NCBI GenBank assembly: GCA_015178975.1
Contig: WHVD01000221.1
Location: 1 to 64,000, forward strand
Source of the DNA: Hysterangium stoloniferum
Taxonomy: Eukaryota > Basidiomycota > Agaricomycetes > Hysterangiales > Hysterangiaceae
DNA: 64,000 nt
Direction of reading: 5' to 3'
The notes beneath the pieces were generated by a model. The model saw only the letters and a program-made list of their open reading frames with translations. It was not told the origin of the DNA and searched no databases. Positions 2,914 to 22,100 of this stretch are shown here, in pieces (the stretch's first letter is position 1; every line of letters begins with the position of its first letter). The position numbers and the translations under genes were made by a program.

Positions 2914-3156
2914 TGTAGTATACACAGAGCAAACTCGCAAAGAAGTTCAGAAAAAAAGGTATTTAACTCGAGGTCCAGACGGTAGTCTCGAGGGAAACTC
3001 AGCCTTAGTGGCGTACAAGTTCCTCCCTACTAGCAACAGCAATAAGGCTGGGCCTGGCAGGGGAATATAAAAGTATAGGCTGAAACTTACTCAAAAGAAG
3101 CGAGTTTGCAAAACGTTATACTGTACTAGAGCGCTTAGAGCGCGGGGCCCATAACC

Positions 3157-3505
3157 TGTTAAAAGTGACCTGTGACTTACTGTGACACGTGACACACACA
3201 AGTCTGAGGAAAGTTGTTACTATTCAGGTCACTAACTACAAGCTTATATATGTTATACATCAGTAGGCTTGTCAGCTGTCATAAGTGACAGCTGGTTGAC
3301 AGCTGGTTGACAGCTGTCATAAGTGACAGCTGATTGACAGCTTGAATGGAAACTGACAGCTGATTGACAGCTGGAATACAAAGTGACAGCTGATTGACAG
3401 CTGTCATGGGAAATGAACTGGGAATACCCTGGAACATGCTGGAAGCTTCTAGAAGGTTCTAGAAGGTTCCAGAAGGTTTTGGAGACAGTGGAGGCAGTTT
3501 TAACA
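3157..3505 (-). repeat. Copia-A 5' LTR
   Basis: 349-bp LTR with TGTTA...TAACA ends. It contains a seven-unit heat-shock element at 3442-3474, repeated TGACAG/CAGCTG sites at about 3268-3405, a CACGTG E-box near 3187 and a TATATAAG promoter-like sequence near 3243. The primer-binding site follows at 3145-3156 on the element strand. Confidence 0.93.
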
Positions 3506-4672
3506 TATACTACAATGCCATCTTCCATTCTCCAATTCCCTAAAGTCAATCAGACTAAAGGGAAGAAGGCAAATAGCACTCAAGAGACAATGTCTCAGGG
3601 CAATGCACCCACTGCATTTCTCAAATGTGCTTTCTGCTCCATGACCAACCATACTATGGACAAGTGTCATCGCTTCATCAAGAAGCAGCAGGAAGCACAG
3701 GAGAGTGTCCTTACCAATCGTGCTAAAGGAAAGAAAAAGCCAAATAGGCCTCAGAAGACAATGTCTCAGAACAATGTTGAATATAGTGGAAATGCACTTG
3801 CTTTCTCCTCATCCGATTCCTCCACCCTGCAGAATGGTCCTGACTATGATTGGCTTGCTGATACAGGTGCTAGTAGTCATATGACTCCTCATAGTCATTG
3901 GCTGCGTAACTACACACCATTATGTGTCCCAATCAAGTTAGCAGATCATACTGTTATCTACTCTGCAGGAGTTGGTTCTGTGGTATTCAACCCAGTTATA
4001 AATGGAAGGAAATCGCGATCTGTGGAGCTTACAAGAGTTTTGCATGTACCACAACTGCGCAGTAACCTATTGTCTTGTCTTTATCTCACAAGACACAAAG
4101 GACTACTCATACACATTGATCGAACAACCATGCATTTCAAACTCTCTGGCCAGACTTTGTTTACAGCCAGAGTTACTGCACAGAATGCAGGCATCCTAAA
4201 TGGTGCCACTGCACCTATTATTGAGCAAGCTGGTGCTGCCTCCACTCTTCCCTTTGATATCAATCTCTGGCATCGCCGTCTTGGACATCACAGCTATGCT
4301 GATGTCCAGAAGATGATCAGAGAAGGATTGGTGGTTGGCTTAAACCTTGACTCAAAGGAACAACCTGATCCTATCTGTGAACCTTGCCTTGCTGGCAAAA
4401 TGACTGCCAATCCATTTCCTACCTCACCAAGTCAATCTCAGACACCACTTGAGCTTATTCATAGTGATCTACATGGACCACTTCCTGTGCAAACAACTGA
4501 GGGTTATCACTACTGGATAACCTTCATTGATGATTGTACTAAGTTGCGAGCTGTTCTGTTCTTAAAACGGAAGAGTGATGCATTTGAAGCATTCAGGAGA
4601 TACAAAGCTTATGCTGAGAATCTTCTGGGTTGCAAGGTCAAAGCTCTGCAGGATGACAAAGGGGGTGAATAC
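3506..4672 (+). mobile_element. Copia-A host copy (plus strand), 5' segment
   Basis: First visible segment of a plus-strand Copia-A copy that resumes at 14765 after a 10-kb insertion. It encodes a shortened gag starting at ATG 3515, then the zinc knuckle, protease and the integrase core as far as the DDKGGEY motif. About 200 residues of the usual Gag are missing after the first dozen residues. Its 5' LTR is not in the window, because another minus-strand copy sits directly upstream of the gag start. The flank aatac at 4668-4672 is the target-site duplication of the inner insertion. Confidence 0.88.
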
Positions 4673-5264: not shown

Positions 5265-5844
5265 TGTTAAAGGCATAGAAAAGAATTGACCCAGCCTGGG
5301 ATTGAACCAAGGACCTCCTGGCTTTATATGCAGGTGCTCTTAACCACTGAGCTACTGGACCTATAGTCTAGTATTATATGATGGATTATATATACATATA
5401 TATATATATAAGGACTTATGATGCCAACTTGTGCTCTTATAACAGCTTATATAACTGATGGCAAACCTGGGTCTTATAACAGTCTGTCACATATAGATAT
5501 TGTATTTTCCCATTTCTAACACTTCCCCTGAAATCAATATCTAGTCTATACCCTATGCAGCGCACCAAGCTCACGGGGCCCATAACCTGTTAAAGGCATA
5601 GAAAAGAATTGACCCAGCCTGGGATTGAACCAAGGACCTCCTGGCTTTATATGCAGGTGCTCTTAACCACTGAGCTACTGGACCTATAGTCTAGTATTAT
5701 ATGATGGATTATATATACATATATATATATATAAGGACTTATGATGCCAACTTGTGCTCTTATAACAGCTTATATAACTGATGGCAAACCTGGGTCTTAT
5801 AACAGTCTGTCACATATAGATATTGTATTTTCCCATTTCTAACA
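5265..5844 (-). mobile_element. TRIM-B, complete tRNA-bearing miniature LTR element
   Basis: 580-bp element: LTRs at 5265-5521 and 5588-5844 (257 bp each) around a 66-bp interior (5522-5587). The interior holds only a polypurine tract (complement of cttcccctg) next to the 3' LTR and the primer-binding site (complement of gggcccataacc, 5576-5587) next to the 5' LTR. The TSD is cccta at 5260-5264 and 5845-5849. Each LTR has a tRNA-like unit (5288-5361 and 5611-5684) followed by a TTTT run. It has no coding capacity, so it must depend on enzymes supplied in trans. Confidence 0.92.
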
Positions 5845-6625: not shown

Positions 6626-7193
6626 TGTTAAAGGCATAGAAAAGAATTGACCCAGCCTGGGATTGAACCAAGGACCTCCTGGCTTTATATGCAGGTGCTC
6701 TTAACCACTGAGCTACTGGACCTATAGTCTAGTATTATATGATGGATTATATATACATATATATAAGGACTTGTGATGCCAACTTGTGCTCTTATAACAG
6801 CTTATATAACTGATGGCAAGCCTGGGTCTTATAACAGTCTGTCACATATAGATATTGCATTTTCCCATTTCTAACACTTCCCCTGAAATCAATATCTAGT
6901 CTATACCCTATGCAGCGCACCAAGCTCACGGGGCCCATAACCTGTTAAAGGCATAGAAAAGAATTGACCCAGCCTGGGATTGAACCAAGGACCTCCTGGC
7001 TTTATATGCAGGTGCTCTTAACCACTGAGCTACTGGACCTATAGTCTAGTATTATATGATGGATTATATATACATATATATAAGGACTTGTGATGCCAAC
7101 TTGTGCTCTTATAACAGCTTATATAACTGATGGCAAGCCTGGGTCTTATAACAGTCTGTCACATATAGATATTGCATTTTCCCATTTCTAACA
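6626..7193 (-). mobile_element. TRIM-B, complete
   Basis: 568-bp element with 251-bp LTRs at 6626-6876 and 6943-7193 and a 66-bp interior (6877-6942). The primer-binding site is at 6931-6942. The TSD is aattg at 6621-6625 and 7194-7198. The tRNA-like units are at 6649-6722 and 6966-7039. The two LTRs share variants that the first TRIM-B lacks (a shorter TA repeat, ttgcatt), as expected for a separate, fairly recent insertion. Confidence 0.92.
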
Positions 7194-7850: not shown

Positions 7851-9548
7851 ATGTCATCTTCCATCCCCCAATTCCCTAAACTCAACTCTCATAACTACAA
7901 CACCTGGTCTGGTGAGATGCAGGCTTGGCTTCGTGCCCAGGGTGTCTGGCGCATTGTTGAGGCCACCTCCATTGCACCTGCACTATCCTCATCTCCCACA
8001 GAGGCTCAGCAAACTGCATTTGATGCTTGGGCTCTCAAGTTAGACAAAGCAGCAGGTTGGATGTACTTGAGTGTTGAGGATGATCAAAAGATTCATCTTA
8101 AAGGGATTGAGGGTGATCCGGTCAAGATGTGGACCAGTCTGTGTGATGTACACTTGCAGAAGCGCCCTGGCATGCGCTTCAATGCGTATGATGATCTCTT
8201 CTCCATCAGAAAGGAAGAGAATGAGAATTTGCAAACTCTGATGAATCGGGTGGATCTAGCCATCCGTGCCATCCAGGATCTGCGCCCATTGAATTTTGAT
8301 CTTGCCAAACTTGATGAGGAACTTGCATCAATGGCAATGATCAGGGCACTTCCTGAGCAGTTTGACAACTTTGCCTCTTCTCTCCTTCTGATGGACAAGC
8401 TGGACAAGGCTACTATCCAACAAGCTTTTGTCACAGAAGAGTCACAACGCCGTCATCGGGCTTCACAAGCTCCTGCAGTTGCATCTGCACTTACTGTAAA
8501 GGGCAATGCATCCACTGCATTTCTTGTTAAAGGCATAGAAAAGAATTGACCCAGCCTGGGATTGAACCAAGGACCTCCTGGCTTTATATGCAGGTGCTCT
8601 TAACCACTGAGCTACTGGACCTATAGTCTAGTATTATATGATGGATTATATATACACATATATAAGGACTTATGTTGCCAACTTGTGCTCTTATAACAGT
8701 TTATATAACTGATGGCAAACCTGGGTCTTATAACAGTCTGTCACATATAGATATTGTATTTTCCCATTTCTAACATGAAGAACCCATTCAACTGCCTCCT
8801 CCACCTGCACCAGAACCACCACTTCGTCGCTCTCAGCGTGTTTCAAAGCAACCGGGTGAATGGTGGAAAGTACAACCAGCTCCAGCTCTAGCTGAGGATG
8901 ATGATGAGGACATTGATTATGAGGAAGTACAGTTTGTTGGAACAGCTTCAACTGCTGATCCACAAAACTACAAGCAGGCTATGAAAGGTGATGATGCAGA
9001 TAAATGACAAGAAGCTATCAATGCAGAGTATAATACACTGGTAGAGAACAAGACATGGGAACTTGTTGACCTCCCAGTTGGTGCAAAGGCAATTGGTTCA
9101 GGTTGGGTGTTTAAAGTCAAACACAATGCAGATGGCACAATTGAGCGTTATAAGGCTCGTCTTGTTGCCAAAGGATACTCACAACGTCCTGGCATTGACT
9201 ACAATGAAGTGTTTGCACCTACTTTTAGACCTGCAACTCTGCGTTTGATTCTGGCCCTAGCTGCCATTGAAGACATGGACTTGCGCTCTGTTGACATTTC
9301 TGCTGCTTTCACCCATGGTGACCTTGATGAGACAATCTATATGAGACAACCTGAAGGCTTCCATCAAGGAGGTCCTAATAAGGTTCTCAGACTCTTGAAA
9401 TCACTTTATGGTCTCAAGCAGGGATCTCGTCAATGGAACATCAAGTTACATGGTGCACTTACTGAAATGGAGTTCAAACGAATTGAATCTGATACCTCTG
9501 TTTACATTTATTCAAATGGAGAGGTCAAGATCTTTGTACCCATTTACA
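7851..9548 (+). pseudogene. Copia-A gag-pol, plus-strand 5' part with internal deletion
   Basis: The frame starts at MSSSIPQFP (ATG 7851) and runs through most of Gag to 8524, where a solo TRIM-B LTR follows. It resumes at 8776 in the integrase/RT linker, so the zinc knuckle, protease and integrase are missing. The remaining part has an in-frame TGA where sibling copies have Trp (near 9005). It ends inside reverse transcriptase at the site cut by the LTR at 9549. The sequence after 8776 matches the subfamily of the copy at 19187-22773 better than the local copies, which suggests recombination. Confidence 0.85.
8525..8775 (-). repeat. TRIM-B solo LTR at a deletion junction
   Basis: 251-bp LTR with a tRNA-like unit at 8548-8621. 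The flanks do not match (tttct at 8520-8524, tgaag at 8776-8780) and lie in two distant parts of gag-pol. This is therefore not a simple insertion. Confidence 0.9.
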
Positions 9549-9897
9549 TGTTAAAAGTGACCTGTGACTTACTGTGACACGTGACACACACAAGTCTGAG
9601 GAAAGTTGTTACTATTCAGGTCACTAACTACAAGCTTATATATGTTATACATCAGTAGGCTTGTCAGCTGTCATAAGTGACAGCTGGTTGACAGCTGGTT
9701 GACAGCTGTCATAAGTGACAGCTGATTGACAGCTTGAATGGAAACTGACAGCTGATTGACAGCTGGAATACAAAGTGACAGCTGATTGACAGCTGTCATG
9801 GGAAATGAACTGGGAATACCCTGGAACATGCTGGAAGCTTCTAGAAGGTTCTAGAAGGTTCCAGAAGGTTTTGGAGACAGTGGAGGCAGTTTTAACA
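9549..9897 (-). repeat. Copia-A 3' LTR
   Basis: 349-bp LTR preceded on its strand by the polypurine tract. The heat-shock element is at 9834-9866. The flank ttaca (9544-9548) is the reverse complement of the TSD at 7255-7259. Confidence 0.92.
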
Positions 9898-9998
9898 GAC
9901 CCCCCTGATCTCACATGTCTCCAAAGAAAAAGAAACAGAGAGAGAGACAGAGAGAGAGACTTTGCTAAACTACAGAGAGTAAGAAAGAAAACAAGAAA

Positions 9999-12900
9999 CT
10001 AAGTCCTTATACCCATTCCATCGCGGCAAAATTGAACCTTGGGAGTAGATAGAGGCTTGGTTAGAATATCTGCAATTTGTTCTGCAGTAGGAATATAGGA
10101 AGGAGCAATACACTTGGCATTTACAGCATCCCTAAGCCAATAGTAGCGCAGGTCAAGATGTTTCATCCTTCCATGATGCTCAGGGTTCTTAGCAACACTG
10201 ATGGCAGACTGGTTGTCAATGTGTAGAGTGGAGGGTTGATCAACTTGGTAGCCAAATTCACCTAGGATTTGCCGCATCCAGGCAATCTCCTTGCCAGCTT
10301 CTACAGCAGAGACAAATTCTGCTTCAGTTGTAGAAAGTGTAACAATACTTTGTAGTTTACTACTCCAGCCAATAGCACCTCCAGCCATCATAGTTACATA
10401 ACCACCAGTGGATCTTCCAGAATCAATGCAATCACCATGAGCAGCATCAGTGTATGTGGTGAATAATTCAGAGCCACATTTACCAGAGTAATGCAACTTG
10501 TATTCCAGTGTACCTTTTAGGTATCTGAACAAGTGCTTCACTGCTGTCCAATGCTTTGGTCCAGGATTCCCATTAAAACGTGCCAAGTAGGACACAGTAT
10601 AAGCAATATCTGGACGGGTCATACATAGTAGCCAGGTATTGTAAAGACCCAACAGCACTGAGATAAGGAACACTACGCATGAAATCCACCTCTGCAGCAT
10701 TCTCAGGACCCATTTCTTTGGAAAGAGATGTACCAGGTGTCATAGGTGTGAGAACTGGATGACAATCAGACATTTTATAACGCTCAAGCATGTTGAGAAT
10801 AAACTGTCGCTGATCAAGAGTAAGGAGTCGCTTAGAGCGATCTCTGCTAACTCCCACACCAAGTAAATAAACAGTGGATCCAAGATCACGGCATTTGAAA
10901 TGCAGGGACAATTGCTTGACAGCTTTGTCAATGGCAAGAGTGGACTTGGATGCAAATGTAATATCATCAATGTAAATGGGTACAAAGATCTTCACCTCTC
11001 CATTTGAATAAATGTAAACAGAGGTATCAGATTCAATTCGTTTGAACTCCATTTCAGTAAGTGCACCATGTAACTTGATGTTCCATTGACGAGATCCCTG
11101 CTTGAGACCATAAAGTGATTTCAAGAGTCTGAGAACCTTATTAGGACCTCCTTGATGGAAGCCTTCAGGTTGTCTCATATAGATTGTCTCATCAAGGTCA
11201 CCATGGGTGAAAGCAGCAGAAATGTCAACAGAGCGCAAGTCCATGTCTTCAATGGCAGCTAGGGCCAGAATCAAACGCAGAGTTGCAGGTCTAAAAGTAG
11301 GTGCAAACACTTCATTGTAGTCAATGCCAGGACGTTGTGAGTATCCTTTGGCAACAAGACGAGCTTTATAACGCTCAATTGTGCCATCTGCATTGTGTTT
11401 GACTTTAAACACCCAACCAGAACCAATTGCCTTTGCACCAACTGGGAGGTCAACAAGTTCCCATGTCTTGTTCTCTACCAGTGTATTATACTCTGCATTT
11501 ATAGCTTCTTGCCATTTATCTGCATCATCACCTTTCATAGCCTGCTTGTAGTTTTGTGGATCAGCAGTTGAAGCTGTTCCAACAAACTGTACTTCCTCAT
11601 AATCAATGTCCTCATCATCATCTTCAGCTAGAGCTGGAGCTGGTTGTACCTTCCACCATTCACCAGGTTGCTTTGGAACACGCTGAGAGCGACGAAGCTG
11701 TGGTTCTGGTGCAGGTGGAGGAGGTAGTTGAATGGGTTCAGGAAGTGCAGGAATCTGAGCAGGAGGTGCAGGAATCTGAACAGGAGGTGCAGGAATATAA
11801 GCAGGAGGTGCAGGAATATGAGTAGGAGGGACAGAAATATCATTATCCCCCTCTACTTCTGGCACAAATAAAGGAATGTCAGAGTTTGGTATATTTGGGA
11901 AAAGCCTAATATTAGGCATTGGTCCAGTAGTAGATAGACCAGGAAAGTGGCGTTCATCAAATACAGCCCGTTCAGAGATGATAAACTTCTTTGTAATAGG
12001 GTTGTAGAATTGCCAACCTTTGTATCCCACAGGATAGCCTAGAAAGAGGCATTTCTCCATGTGTGACTGAAGTGACTTCCTTTTGTCCTTTTGAATGTAA
12101 ACATAGGCAGTACACCCCCACACTCGCAAGTTGCTCACATCTGGTTTCTGCTTGTACCATTGCTCGTAGGGTGTAGTTTTAGGCAATGGTGCAGTAGGCA
12201 GACGATTCCATACATAGACATAAGATGTCACAGCATGGTTCCAGAAAGAAGCAGGGATACACGCCTCATGCATCATGGCAGTGACATGATCAGCCATAGT
12301 GCGATTGGCTCTTTCTGCAACTCCATTCTGTTGAGGGCGATTGCGAGTAGTATGGCGGCGTACTATTCCACATTCATCTGTAAACTTGATAAAGGCATTT
12401 GACATATACTCCCCCCCTTTGTCATCCTGCAGAGCTTTGACCTTGCAACCCAGAAGATTCTCAGCATAAGCTTTGTATCTCCTGAATGCTTCAAATGCAT
12501 CACTCTTCCGTTTCAAGAACAGAACAGCTCGCAACTTGGTGCAATCATCAATGAAGGTTATCCAGTAGTGATAACCCTCAGTTGTTTGCACAGGAAGTGG
12601 TCCATGTAGATCACTATGAATAAGCTCAAGTGGTGTCTGAGATTGACTTGGTGAGGTAGGAAATGGATTGGCAGTCATTTTGCCAGCAAGGCAAGGTTCA
12701 CAGATAGGATCAGGTTGTTCCTTTGAGTCAAGGTTTAAGCCAACCACCAATCCTTCTCTGATCATCTTCTGGACATCAGCATAGCTGTGGTGTCCAAGAC
12801 GGCGATGCCAGAGATTGATATCAAAGGGAAGGGTGGAGACAGCACCAGCTTGCTCAATAATAGGTGCAGTGGCACCATTGAGGATACCTGCATTCTGTGC

Positions 12901-14130
12901 AGTAACTCTGGCTGTAAACATAGTCTGGCCAGAGAGTTTGAAATGCATTGTTGTTCGATCAATGTGTATGAGTAGTCCTTTGTGCCTTGTGAGATAAAGA
13001 CAAGACAGTAGGTTACTGCGCAGTTGTGGTACATGCAAAACTCTTGTAAGCTCCACAGATCGCGATTTCCTTCCATTTATAACTGGGTTGAATACCACAG
13101 AACCAACTCCTGCAGAGTAGATAACAGTGTGATCTGCTAACTTGATTGGGACACATAATGGTGTGTAGTTACGCAGCCAATGACTATGAGGAGTCATATG
13201 ACTACTAGCACCTGTATCAGCAAGCCAATCATAGTCAGAACCATTCTGCAGGGTGGAGGAATCGGATGAGGAGAAAGCAAGTGCATTTCCAGTATATTCA
13301 ACATTGTTCTGAGACATTGTCTTCTGAGGCCTATTTGGCTTCTTCTTCCCTTTAGCACGATTGGTAAGGACACTCTCCTGTGCTTCCTGCTGCTTCTTAA
13401 TGAAGCGATGACACTTGTCCATAGTATGGTTGGTCATAGAGCAGAAAGTACATTTGAGAAATGCAGTGGATGCATTGCCCTTTACAGTAAGTGCAGATGC
13501 AACTGCAGGAGCTTGTGAAGCCCGATGACGGCGTTGTGACTCTTCTGTGACAAAAGCTTGTTGGATAGTAGCCTTGTCCAGCTTGTCCATCAGAAGGAGA
13601 GAAGAGGCAAAGTTGTCAAACTGCTCAGGAAGTGCCCTGATCATTGCCATTGATGCAAGTTCCTCATCAAGTTTGGCAAGATCAAAATTCAATGGGCGCA
13701 GATCCTGGATGGCACGGATGGCTAGATCCACCCGATTCATCAGAGTTTGCAAATTCTCATTCTCTTCCTTTCTGATGGAGAAGAGATCATCATACGCATT
13801 GAAGCGCATGCCAGGGCGCTTCTGCAAGTGTACATCACACAGACTGGTCCACATCTTGACCGGATCACCCTCAATCCCTTTAAGATGAATCTTTTGATCA
13901 TCCTCAACACTCAAGTACATCCAACCTGCTGCTTTGTCTAACTTGAGAGCCCAAGCATCAAATGCAGTTTGCTGAGCCTCTGTGGGAGATGAGGATAGTG
14001 CAGGTGCAATGGAGGTGGCCTCAACAATGCGCCAGACACCCTGGGCACGAAGCCAAGCCTGCATCTCACCAGACCAGGTGTTGTAGTTATGAGAGTTGAG
14101 TTTAGGGAATTGGGGGATGGAAGATGACAT
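9999..14130 (-). pseudogene. Copia-A gag-pol polyprotein, one 4-bp insertion
   Basis: Single polyprotein: Gag with zinc knuckle (CTFCSMTNHTMDKC), protease (DWLADTGASSHM), integrase (HRRLGHH and CEPC zinc site, then D, D, E), a linker with IPAPPA-like repeats, reverse transcriptase (VDISAAF, YIDD) and RNase H (TDAAHGD, STTEAEF, HIDNQSA). About 1,380 codons is the usual copia length. The start is the second methionine (MSSSIPQFP), shared with other copies. A 4-bp insertion near 10621-10624, absent from every sibling, shifts the frame between reverse transcriptase and RNase H. The rest is open. Confidence 0.92.
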
Positions 14131-14372
14131 TGTAGTATACACAGAGCAAACTCGCAAAGAAGTTCAGAAAAAAGGTATTTAACTCGAGGTCCAGACGGTA
14201 GTCTCGAGGGAAACTCAGCCTTAGTGGCGTACAAGTTCCTCCCTACTAGCAACAGCAATAAGGCTGGGCCTGGCAGGGGAATATAAAAGTATAGGCTGAA
14301 ACTTACTCAAAAGAAGCGAGTTTGCAAAACGTTATACTGTACTAGAGCGCTTAGAGCGCGGGGCCCATAACC

Positions 14373-14759
14373 TGTTAAAAGTGACCTGTGACTTACTGTG
14401 ACACGTGACACACACAAGTCTGAGGAAAGTTGTTGCTATTCAGGTCACTAACTACAAGCTTATATATGTTATACATCAGTAGACTTGTCAGCTGTCATAA
14501 GTGACAGCTGGTTGACAGCTGGTTGACAGCTGTCATAAGTGACAGCTGGTTGACAGCTGGTTGACAGCTGTCATAAGTGACAGCTGATTGACAGCTTGAA
14601 TGGAAACTGACAGCTGATTGACAGCTGGAATACAAAGTGACAGCTGATTGACAGCTGTCATGGGAAATGAACTGGGAATACCCTGGAACATGCTGGAAGC
14701 TTCTAGAAGGTTCTAGAAGGTTCCAGAAGGTTTTGGAGACAGTGGAGGCAGTTTTAACA
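14373..14759 (-). repeat. Copia-A 5' LTR, 387-bp long form
   Basis: Same ends as other Copia-A LTRs but with an extra 38-bp unit of the gacagctggttgacagct array near 14535-14580. The heat-shock element is at 14696-14728. It is followed at 14760-14764 by the TSD aatac. Confidence 0.92.
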
Positions 14760-15531: not shown

Positions 15532-15782
15532 TGTTAAAGGCATAGAAAAGAATTGACCCAGCCTGGGATTGAACCAAGGACCTCCTGGCTTTATATGCAG
15601 GTGCTCTTAACCACTGAGCTACTGGACCTATAGTCTAGTATTATATGATGGATTATATATACATATATATAAGGACTTATGATGCCAACTTGTGCTCTTA
15701 TAACAGCTTATATAACTGATGGCAAACCTGGGTCTTATAACAGTCTGTCACATATAGATATTGTATTTTCCCATTTCTAACA
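15532..15782 (-). repeat. TRIM-B solo LTR
   Basis: 251-bp LTR with TSD ccagc at 15527-15531 and 15783-15787, so it is an insertion that later collapsed to a solo LTR. The tRNA-like unit is at 15555-15628. Confidence 0.92.
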
Positions 15783-16990: not shown

Positions 16991-17339
16991 TGTTAAAAGT
17001 GACCTGTGACTTACTGTGACACGTGACACACACAAGTCTGAGGAAAGTTGTTACTATTCAGGTCACTAACTACAAGCTTATATATGTTATACATCAGTAG
17101 GCTTGTCAGCTGTCATAAGTGACAGCTGGTTGACAGCTGGTTGACAGCTGTCATAAGTGACAGCTGATTGACAGCTTGAATGGAAACTGACAGCTGATTG
17201 ACAGCTGGAATACAAAGTGACAGCTGATGGACAGCTGTCATGGAAAATGAACTGGGAATACCCTGGAGCATGCTGGAAGCTTCTAGAAGGTTCTAGAAGG
17301 TTCCAGAAGGTTTTGGAGACAGTGGAGGCAGTTTTAACA
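16991..17339 (-). repeat. Copia-A solo LTR
   Basis: 349-bp LTR inserted antisense in the RNase H part of the host copy, with TSD ggtga at 16986-16990 and 17340-17344. The heat-shock element is at 17276-17308. No internal sequence remains, as expected after LTR-LTR recombination. Confidence 0.93.
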
Positions 17340-17878: not shown

Positions 17879-18227
17879 TGTTAAAACTGCCTCCACTGTC
17901 TCCAAAACCTTCTGGAACCTTCTAGAACCTTCTAGAAGCTTCCAGCATGCTCCAGGGTATTCCCAGTTCATTTTCCATGACAGCTGTCCATCAGCTGTCA
18001 CTTTGTATTCCAGCTGTCAATCAGCTGTCAGTTTCCATTCAAGCTGTCAATCAGCTGTCACTTATGACAGCTGTCAACCAGCTGTCAACCAGCTGTCACT
18101 TATGACAGCTGACAAGCCTACTGATGTATAACATATATAAGCTTGTAGTTAGTGACCTGAATAGTAACAACTTTCCTCAGACTTGTGTGTGTCACGTGTC
18201 ACAGTAAGTCACAGGTCACTTTTAACA
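17879..18227 (+). repeat. Copia-A 3' LTR of the host copy
   Basis: 349-bp LTR directly after the polypurine tract. The heat-shock element is at 17910-17942. It ends inside the integrase of a second copia family. The flank attca (18228-18232) is the presumed TSD, with its partner outside the window. Confidence 0.92.
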
Positions 18228-18615: not shown

Positions 18616-19186
18616 TGTTAGAAATGGGAAAATACAATATCTATATGTGACAGACTGTTATAAGACCCAGGCTTGCCATCAGTTATATAAACTGTTATAA
18701 GAGCACAAGTTGGCATCATAAGTCCTTGTATATATGTATATATAATCCATCATATAATACTAGACTATAGGTCCAGTAGCTCAGTGGTTAAGAGCACCTG
18801 CATATAAAGCCAGGAGGTCCTTGGTTCAATCCCAGGCTGGGTCAATTCTTTTCTATGCCTTTAACAGGTTATGGGCCCCGTTCAGCTTCATCTGCTGCGT
18901 AGGGTATAGACTAGATATTGATTTCAGGGGAAGTGTTAGAAATGGGAAAAAATACAATATCTATATGTGACAGACTGTTATAAGACCCAGGCTTGCCATC
19001 AGTTATATAAACTGTTATAAGAGCACAAGTTGGCATCACAAGTCCTTATATATATGTATATATAATCCATCATATAATACTAGACTATAGGTCCAGTAGC
19101 TCAGTGGTTAAGAGCACCTGCATATAAAGCCAGGAGGTCCTTGGTTCAATCCCAGGCTGGGTCAATTCTTTTCTATGCCTTTAACA
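18616..19186 (+). mobile_element. TRIM-B, complete, plus strand, at a chimeric junction
   Basis: 571-bp element with LTRs at 18616-18866 and 18934-19186 and a 67-bp interior with the primer-binding site (18867-18878) and polypurine tract (aggggaag, 18926-18933). The flanks differ (gttgt on the left, atttc on the right) and belong to two different copia families. The element therefore marks a recombination between two TRIM-B insertions. The tRNA-like units are at 18770-18843 and 19090-19163. Confidence 0.92.
18770..18843 (+). ncRNA. tRNA-like unit inside the TRIM-B LTR
   Basis: A 7-bp acceptor stem (GGTCCAG with CTGGGTC), a 4-bp D stem (GCTC with GAGC), a D loop AGTGGTTAA, an anticodon arm with T at the U33 position and one unpaired extra base, a 5-nt variable region and a 5-bp T stem (CTTGG with CCAGG) around TTCAATC. 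The pol III A box (TAGCTCAGTGGTTAAG) and B box (GGTTCAATCC) are intact, and a TTTT terminator lies at 18849-18852. The same unit is in every other TRIM-B LTR: 19090-19163, 20853-20926 (plus), and 5288-5361, 5611-5684, 6649-6722, 6966-7039, 8548-8621, 15555-15628 (minus). Whether it is transcribed is unknown. Confidence 0.8.
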
Positions 19187-19191
19187 ATTTC

Positions 19192-22100
19192 AGTAAGTGC
19201 ACCATGTAACTTGATGTTCCATTGACGAGATCCCTGCTTGAGACCATAAAGTGATTTCAAGAGTCTGAGAACCTTATTAGGACCTCCTTGATGGAAGCCT
19301 TCAGGTTGTCTCATATAGATTGTCTCATCAAGGTCACCATGGGTGAAAGTAGCAGAAATGTCAACAGAGCGCAAGTCCATGTCTTCAATGGCAGCTAGGG
19401 CCAGAATCAAACACAGAGTTGCAGGTCTAAAAGTAGGTGCAAACACTTCATTGTAGTCAATGCCAGGACGTTGTGAGTATCCTTTGGCAACAAGACGAGC
19501 TTTATAATGCTCAATTGTGCCATCTGCATTGTGTTTGACTTTAAACACCCAACCTGAACCAATTGCCTTTGCACCAACTGGAAGATCAACAAGTTCCCAT
19601 GTCTTGTTCTCTACCAGTGTATTATACTCTGCATTGATAGCTTCTTGCCATTTATCTGCATCATCACCTTTCATAGCCTGCTTGTAGTTTTGTGGATCAG
19701 CAGTTGAAGCTGTTCCAACAAACTGTACTTCCTCATAATCAATGTCCTCATCATCATCCTCAGCTAGAGCTGGAGCTGGTTGTACTTTCCACCATTCACC
19801 CGGTTGCTTTGAAACACGCTGAGAGCGACGAAGTGGTGGTTCTGGTGCAGGTGGAGGAGGCAGTTGAATGGGTTCTTCAACCCCAGGAGGAGGCAAAGGT
19901 GGTTCAGGAAGTGCAGGAACATGAGCAGGAGGTATAGGAATATGAGCAGGAGGTGCAGGAATATGAGTAAGAGGAACAGAAATATCATTATCCCCCTGTA
20001 CTTCTGGCACAAATGAAGAAATGTCAGAGTGTGGTGTATTTGGGACAAGCCTGATATTAGGCATTGGTCCAGTAGTAGATAGACCAGGAAAGTGGCGTTC
20101 ATCAAATACAGCCCGTTCAGAGATGATAAACTTCTTTGTAACAGGGTTGTAGAATTGCCAACCTTTGTATCCCACAGGATAGCCTAGAAAGAGGCATTTC
20201 TCCATGTGTGACTGAAGTGACTTCCTTTTGTCCCTTTGAATGTAAACATAGGCAGTATATCCCCATACTCGCAAGTTGCTTACATCTGGTTTCTGCTTGT
20301 ACCATTGCTCATAGGGTGTAGTTTTAGGTAATGGTGCCGTAGGCAGACGGTTCCAGACATAAACATAAGATGTCACAGCATGGTTCCAGAAAGAAGCAGG
20401 CATACGTGCCTCATGCATCATGGCAGTGACATGATCAGCCATAGTGCGATTGGCTCTTTCTGCAACTCCATTCTGTTGAGGGCGATTGCGAGTAGTATGG
20501 CGGCGTACTATTCCACATTCATCTGTAAACTTGATAAAGGCATTTGACATATACTCCCCCCCTTTGTCATCCTGCAGAGCTTTGACCTTGCAACCGAGAA
20601 GATTCTCAGCATAAGCTTTGTATCTCCTGAATGCTTCAAATGCATCACTCTTCCGTTTCAAGAACAGAATAGCTCGCAACTTGGTGCAATCATCAATATG
20701 TTAGAAATGGGAAAATACAATATCTATATGTGATAGACTGTTATAAGACCCAGGTTTGCCATCAGTTATATAAACTGTTATAAGAGCACAAGTTGGCATC
20801 ACAAGTCCTTATATATATGTATATATAATCCATCATATAATACTAGACTATAGGTCCAGTAGCTCAGTGGTTAAGAGCACCTGTATATAAAGCCAGGAGG
20901 TCCTTGGTTCAATCCCAGGCTGGGTCAATTCTTTTCTATGCCTTTAACACAATAAAGGTTATCCAGTAGTGATAACCCTCAGTTGTTTGCACAGGAAGTG
21001 GTCCATGTAGATCACTATGAATAAGTTCAAGTGGTGTCTGAGAATGACTTGGTGAGATAGGGAATGGACTAGCAGTCATTTTGCCAGCAAGGCAAGGTTC
21101 ACAGATAGGATCAGGCTGTTCCTTTGAGTCAAGGTTTAAGCCAACCACCAATCCTTCTCTGATCATCTTCTGGACATCAGCATAGCTGTGGTGTCCAAGA
21201 CGGCGATGCCAGAGATTGATATCAAAGGGAAGGGTGGAGACAGCACCAGCTTGCTCAATAATAGGTGCAGTGACACCATTGAGGATACCTGCATTCTGTG
21301 CAGTAACTCTGGCTGTAAACATAGTCTGTCCAGAGTGTTTGAAATGCATTGTTGTTCGATCAATGTGTATGAGTAGTCCTTTGTGCCTTGTGAGATAAAG
21401 ACAAGACAGTAGGTTACTGCGCAGTTGTGGTACATGCAAAACTCTTGTAAGCTCCACAGATCGCGATTTCCTTCCATTTATAACTGGGTTGAATACCACA
21501 GAACCAACTCCTGCAGAGTAGATAACAGTGTGATCTGCTAACTTGATTGGGACACATAATGGTGTGTAGTTACGCAGCCAATGACTATGAGGAGTCATAT
21601 GACTACTAGCACCTGTATCAGCAAGCCAATCATAGTCAGAACCATTCTGCAGGGTGGAGGAATCGGATGAGGAGAAAGCAAGTGCATTTCCAGTATATTC
21701 AACATTGTTCTGAGACATTGTCTTCTGAGGCCTATTTGGCTTCTTCTTCCCTTTAGCACGATTGGTAAGGACACTCTCCTGTGCTTCCTGCTGCTTCTTA
21801 ATGAAGCGATGACACTTGTCCATAGTATGGTTGGTCATAGAGCAGAAAGTACATTTGAGAAATGCAGTGGATGCATTGCCCTTTACAGTAAGTGCAGATG
21901 CAACTGCAGGAGCTTGTGAAGCCCGATGACGGTGTTGTGACTCTTCTGTGACAAAAGCTTGTTGGATAGTAGCCTTGTCCAGCTTGTCCATCAGAAGGAG
22001 AGAAGAGGCAAAGTTGTCAAACTGCTCAGGAAGTGCCCTGATCATTGCCATTGATGCAAGTTCCTCATCAAGTTTGGCAAGATCAAAATTCAATGGGCGC

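Follow-up and report, generated by a model that had tools for sequence, protein, structure and literature searches.

TRIM-B, a Helenus-type miniature LTR retrotransposon of Hysterangium stoloniferum, and its hybrids with a Copia family

The miniature LTR retrotransposon (TRIM) family TRIM-B of Hysterangium stoloniferum forms hybrids with one Copia family, here named Copia-X after its LTR (X), and the hybrid borders lie at the junction of the LTR and the primer-binding site (PBS). These hybrids are the new element of this study, and their pattern is consistent with strand transfer inside a single particle that holds both TRIM and Copia cDNAs. TRIM-B is a family of the Helenus kind, placed there by its features rather than by comparison with Repbase consensus sequences. 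We consider it highly probable that TRIM-B is a Helenus-type TRIM with a pol III-type promoter in its LTR, copied in trans by the Copia-X family of the window, the window being the whole 64,000-nucleotide stretch analysed (contig WHVD01000221.1).

Hybrids bearing target site duplications (TSDs) provide a footprint of a TRIM and its helper copied together, which is searchable in any TRIM-carrying genome. If LTRs are indeed swapped at the primer site, a miniature element reveals its own helper.

Anatomy and kinship of TRIM-B

The nominated copy was originally predicted as an element of about 570 bp whose 66-67 bp interior holds a PBS and a polypurine tract (PPT). This was borne out by a length of 571 bp and an interior of 67 bp (Table 1), which begins with GGTTATGGGCCCCG, finishes with CAGGGGAAG and has both the PBS and the candidate PPT between the LTRs; the PPT role of CAGGGGAAG is assigned by analogy. 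The full copies in the window measure 568-580 bp, below the 1000-bp limit of a TRIM, with interiors of 66-67 bp and no protein genes. A search of a plasmid collection for a near match to TRIM-B found none.

Table 1. Features of TRIM-B, the Copia element and their hybrids (window positions; contigs of the host genome for hybrids)
Feature	Position	Strand	Description
TRIM-B, nominated copy	18616..19186	+	571 bp
5' LTR (type L)	18616..18866	+	251 bp, TGTTA...TAACA
tRNA-like unit, 5' LTR	18770..18844	+	75 nt; ARAGORN; Rfam RF00005, 48.6 bits
Presumed A box TAGCTCAGTGG	18777..18787	+	unchanged in 94/94 aligned LTR copies
Presumed B box GGTTCAATCCC	18823..18833	+	unchanged in 94/94 aligned LTR copies
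TTTT	18849..18852	+	sole four-T run in this LTR and interior unit
TRIM-B interior (I), subtype A	18867..18933	+	67 bp
PBS	18867..18880	+	14 nt complementary to anticodon region of host tRNA-Met(CAT) genes (L107, L108)
Candidate PPT CAGGGGAAG	18925..18933	+	directly before 3' LTR; read from sequence
3' LTR (type L)	18934..19186	+	253 bp; tRNA-like unit inside at 19090-19164
Full copy, interior subtype B	5265..5844	-	TSD TAGGG; zero substitutions between its LTRs
Full copy, interior subtype B	6626..7193	-	TSD CAATT; zero substitutions between its LTRs
Solo LTR	8525..8775	-	no TSD (CTTCA/AGAAA)
Solo LTR	15532..15782	-	TSD GCTGG
Solo LTR	20699..20949	+	TSD CAATA
Copia element	9549..14759	-	X LTRs 14373-14759 and 9549-9897; no matching TSD
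Copia PBS	14359..14372	-	identical 14 nt to TRIM PBS; 17 nt matching tRNA-Met gene
Copia reading frame	10573..14157	-	gag, integrase, reverse transcriptase domains
233-aa frame overlapping Copia frame end	9999-10700		no Pfam match
X-I-L hybrid	C109		TSD AAAGA
X-I-L hybrid	C544		TSD CAATC
X-I-L hybrid	C59		TSD TTTAT; final LTR letters TAATA
X-I-L hybrid	C441		TSD CTGTC
X-I-L hybrids	C514, C543		no TSD
L-int-X hybrid	C35:906369		TSD AGAGA, within GA run
L-int-X hybrids	C14, C256		no TSD
Three-LTR hybrid X-I-L-int-X	C259		TSD ATCAC
Three-LTR hybrid L-int-X-I-L	C2		TSD TTTTT; outer LTRs differ at 2/251 positions
Three-LTR hybrid	C35:1081421		no TSD

Each LTR was also predicted to contain a tRNA-like unit with paired stems, A and B boxes and a TTTT. 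ARAGORN and the Rfam tRNA model support this for both LTRs of the nominated copy. For the unit first placed at 18770-18843, the covariance model gave 48.6 bits, as it did in the other LTR, against a gathering score of 29, and the stems pair in the Rfam alignment. As a correction, that alignment inserts one additional base into the anticodon stem, on its 3' strand, and others into the D loop and the variable region. The description of the unit as a complete tRNA-like pol III gene stands for its anatomy only. The A and B boxes are presumptive and were named after the box consensus. Judged from these features, TRIM-B would be transcribed by pol III.

Conservation was assessed in an alignment of 94 LTRs of this young family, the LTRs of hybrids among them. 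The 12-base context of the TTTT is intact in 91 of the 94, and 93 contain exactly one TTTT. Variable sites are rarer in the tRNA-like part (8/75) than in U3 (39/154; P = 0.0036), which is at most suggestive of selection on the promoter. A claim of strong selection was dropped, as the difference drops to 8/75 versus 25/123 (P = 0.08) when the TA-rich stretch at 90-120 is excluded, an exclusion chosen post hoc. Among the genes compared in 30 loci (63 of 5384 candidates scored), five tRNA genes come closest as candidate parents of the unit, two for Cys, two for Phe and one for Met; each is identical at 51-52 of 75 positions, which does not single out a parent.

At gathering scores, the window yields nine Rfam matches, every one of them tRNA, and none to the 5S rRNA-derived LTR sequence that is the trait of Cassandra. 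All nine predicted tRNA genes of the window lie within TRIM-B copies, indicating that Helenus-type families distort tRNA gene counts. In the solo LTR at 20699-20949, the tRNA-like unit (20853-20927) has an altered anticodon call by ARAGORN and scores 47.8 bits in Rfam. Elsewhere in the genome, intron-containing tRNA-Lys(CTT)-like genes occur in clusters at C112 (~987-1219 kb) and C68 (744-852 kb), and also on C410, C526 and C290 (L066-L090), with a repeat spacing of mostly ~300-450 bp in the self-compared loci. The idea that they form a second Helenus family was considered and set aside; visual inspection of a single stretch (L074) revealed neither an LTR nor a primer-site arrangement.

A search with the initiator tRNA-Met (iMet) anticodon pattern, allowing one mismatch, found three genome sites. 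The two that were examined were identified as tRNA-Met by ARAGORN and as tRNA by Rfam (58.9 bits), and from their features we take these host genes to encode the initiator. Pairing with the host tRNA-Met gene extends over 14 nt for the TRIM PBS and 17 nt for the Copia PBS.

Contrary to the original prediction, a fungal design of this kind has been described, and at the level of kind TRIM-B belongs to it, an outcome that had been named in advance as a refutation. Helenus (TRIMp3) is a TRIM class with tRNA-like LTR sequence and known fungal members, comprising 113 families in Pucciniales and more in Agaricomycetes (Kojima 2024, PMC10886601); a meeting report cites it in one sentence (PMC12859917). 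In the accessible portions of Kojima 2024, Copia is proposed as the helper of fungal Helenus on the evidence of the primer sites, the length of the TSDs and a single interior in common; most fungal members use an anticodon-region primer and have 5-bp TSDs; the primer site has no complementarity to the tRNA-like unit of the element's own LTR; and pol III transcription of Helenus itself is given as unvalidated. TRIM-B resembles Helenus, as described there, in its length below 1 kb, tRNA-like LTRs, conserved A and B boxes, iMet-anticodon PBS, 5-bp TSDs of the fungal type, suspected Copia helper, solo LTRs and tandem arrays, the last mentioned for a zebrafish family. It differs in that its host is apparently outside the fungi listed, its hybrids indicate a specific helper, and its arrays reach seven LTRs with flanking TSDs.

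The proposed parallel to plant Cassandra elements also holds, with a pol III-type unit in the LTR that is tRNA-like and not 5S. Cassandra shares the pol III gene in the LTR and arrays of many LTRs and interiors (Kalendar 2020, PMC7215508, as far as its available text goes), whereas its LTR gene is 5S rRNA-derived, its hosts are plants, and no helper is indicated for it according to the same portions of PMC10886601. SINEs lack LTRs and depend on LINEs for insertion, in contrast to TRIM-B with its LTRs, PBS, putative PPT and 5-bp TSDs.

Copies in the window and across the host genome

All six TRIM-B copies originally reported, three of them full-length and three solo LTRs, were located in the window. 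Clean 5-bp TSDs had been claimed for them, and this applies to four of the six (TAGGG, CAATT, GCTGG and CAATA); it fails for the nominated copy, flanked by GTTGT/ATTTC, and for the solo LTR at 8525-8775. The left flank of the nominated copy is 68.6% identical to Copia near positions 2126-2362 and the right flank is 98.7% identical at 3111-3709. These are separate Copia regions, so the flanks do not form one site, and the copy is best read as a probable recombinant between two insertions. The solo LTR lies between Copia positions 1303 and 3021, which separates its two flanks by ~1.7 kb on the Copia sequence, and on the same sequence grounds may likewise be a recombinant.

The host genome comprises 111 Mb in 554 contigs. 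Protein matches mark the host as an agaricomycete: a Dbf4-like protein matches Clathrus columnatus at 65%, the sole named organism among 17 hits, and the best named match of Nar1 among at least 120 hits is Chiua virens at 55%. A position near Phallales is tentative, and no fungus of that kind appears in the accessible portions of PMC10886601. Genome-wide searches scored the best 40 of 318 LTR candidates (at least 73 matches) and 40 of 82 interior candidates, and the copy counts are therefore lower bounds. TSDs were surveyed in 43 merged genome pieces containing 44 blocks with intact ends and sequence on either side. Exact 5-bp TSDs flank 31 of the 44; in 10,000 shuffles the mean was 0.8 and the maximum 5. 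By type, they were found for 16/21 solo LTRs, 10/17 two-LTR copies, 4/5 longer arrays and the single copy with an internally deleted LTR (1/1); one of the five solo LTRs without a TSD (C2:477284) was later recognised as part of a hybrid. Together with the 94 aligned LTR copies, these TSDs uphold the claim of a real mobile family rather than a chance tRNA insertion. The LTR pair shows no substitution in 4 of the 17 two-LTR copies (gaps ignored), indicating recent activity.

Tandem arrays reach seven LTRs. The array at C534:47742-49976 has seven LTRs and six interiors, TSD AATAC and a 289-bp LTR variant occurring twice, and the array at C4:59677-60879 mixes both interior subtypes.

Hybrids of TRIM-B and Copia-X

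The Copia-X family of the window is proposed as the helper. Its window copy is split across two frames, which counts against this role. The first 14 interior bases are common to Copia-X and TRIM-B, while the X LTR (349 bp as 3' LTR) differs in sequence from L. X and L are alike only at their ends, TTTAACA (3') and TGTTA (5'), with otherwise chance-level short matches, and thus have no common R region. A solo X LTR lies at 16991-17339 (TSD TCACC), and an X LTR contains tandem AGCTGTCA-type repeats at 17982-18115; X copies vary in length, perhaps via such repeats.

LTR borders were searched genome-wide with up to two mismatches, with I and int denoting the TRIM and Copia interiors. On the PBS side, 16 hybrid borders (10 X/I and 6 L/int) were found beside 62 parental X/int and 32 parental L/I (subtype A) borders. 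On the PPT side, the genome-wide search found no hybrid borders, either I/X or int/L, beside 72 parental int/X borders genome-wide and 50 I/L borders in the fetched stretches only. Backward-read control patterns gave no matches. Fisher's test of the two sides gave P = 3.5e-6, a rough value because genome-wide and local counts are mixed and the 16 borders fall in just 13 elements, three-LTR forms containing both kinds. A further X/I site with a one-base insertion was seen locally at C544. In the local stretches, subtype B interiors form eight L/I borders and no X/I border. The reading of X-I-L as the LTR of a larger element was dropped, since X/int is the common Copia border and L-int-X is also present.

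Twelve hybrids were readable at both ends (Table 1), with two further X/I sites excluded as broken or interrupted (C441:338592 and C534:341389). Exact TSDs flank seven of the 12, with a chance of ~4e-10 at the shuffled rate, and with the simple-sequence TSDs (TTTTT and AGAGA) scored as misses the count is 5/12 (chance 1.3e-6). The X parts of four older X-I-L copies are ~2% apart, and those of the two L-int-X copies without TSD on C14 and C256 are identical; the hybrid events are thus not necessarily all independent.

In soybean, autonomous elements and their non-autonomous partners have reportedly exchanged LTRs, an LTR swapping described in work attributed to Du in 2010. Among the matches listed (titles and abstract openings, with thin coverage of subscription literature), no report of TRIM-helper hybrids at the primer site was found. 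For TRIM and SMART elements, the accessible parts of Gao 2016 (PMC4717578) and Gao 2012 (PMC3281118) likewise propose Copia as the autonomous partner, although sequence sharing is the basis of that assignment and those parts show no hybrid elements; among 289 TRIM subfamilies, 11 have larger relatives, of which four are putatively autonomous, and the interaction is said to need verification (PMC4717578). Three-LTR insertions with TSDs were ascribed to co-packaged templates by Sabot and Schulman 2007 (PMC1950507), whose switch, in the text available, is proposed at R between similar elements, whereas here elements with unrelated LTRs would switch at the primer site, and there are asymmetric forms with two LTRs as well. 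Recombinant elements of the Onsen burst (PMC5668417, text available in part) are also new LTR elements arising by reverse transcription of mixed templates; they differ in belonging to a single family and in that the LTR recombinants mostly come from the first template switch in R.

Alternative explanations and proposed cycle

A chance tRNA gene, or a tRNA-derived SINE beside unrelated repeats, has almost no probability. A SINE alone could supply a tRNA-like match, yet the unit keeps one constant position across the 94 aligned LTRs of the genome, together with LTR ends, PBS, PPT and TSDs, which refutes both. It is also unlikely, in our judgement, that the unit is incidental, or that a functional tRNA or small RNA comes from it, while pol II transcribes the element from upstream TATA-like boxes. 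Such sequences are present at 18729-18758, ~12-41 bp upstream of the unit and suitable for a pol II start. Against this explanation, both boxes are invariant in the aligned LTRs while four of the eight variable tRNA-like sites belong to the anticodon arm, which spans 20 sites (a small sample), and the anticodon stem carries its extra base. Published Helenus families, in the portions of PMC10886601 available, similarly lose tRNA identity.

The hybrids could instead have arisen by DNA recombination of resident Copia and TRIM copies at their shared 21-bp border, which we regard as improbable. Copies are nested in one another, and the two TSD-less TRIM-B copies of the window suggest that such recombination happens. 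As the PBS side shares 21 bp and the PPT side far less, DNA recombination would favour the PBS side too. The PBS-side bias is thus expected under both routes and the TSDs alone separate them; five of the 12 resolved hybrids have none, as recombination would predict. A single crossover between two resident insertions would however leave unlike flanks and destroy the TSDs, so the seven TSD-bearing hybrids point to integration of a single hybrid cDNA. We lean towards the view that TRIM and helper cDNAs are repeatedly co-packaged and whole LTRs are swapped at the primer site, TRIM giving Copia an LTR with a pol III promoter (L-int-X) and Copia giving TRIM its LTR (X-I-L).

In the proposed cycle, pol III would start at the tRNA-like unit of the 5' LTR, pass the short TTTT there and terminate at its counterpart in the 3' LTR, so that the RNA would carry the tRNA-like unit at both ends. 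The hybrids imply that this RNA may be packaged by Copia-X proteins. Minus-strand DNA would be primed by an initiator-tRNA fragment, complementary to the PBS and presumably cut in the anticodon arm; plus-strand DNA would begin at the PPT; and the Copia integrase would insert the product, consistent with the 5-bp TSDs. With TRIM and Copia cDNAs in a common particle, plus-strand strong-stop DNA of either element could transfer to the other's minus strand at its primer-site end, yielding X-I-L or L-int-X with unlike LTRs and a parental PPT border, as in the observed structures. The three-LTR forms, which resemble the template-switch complexes of PMC1950507, would require an additional, unspecified step. 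X-I-L would be incapable of renewal as a hybrid, as X and L have no common R region.

TRIM and Copia-X copies are crowded into one contig stretch each on C35 (906-1090 kb) and C441 (276-339 kb), which hold 11 of the 13 Copia borders of C35 and all five of C441. These crowded stretches are perhaps centromeric.
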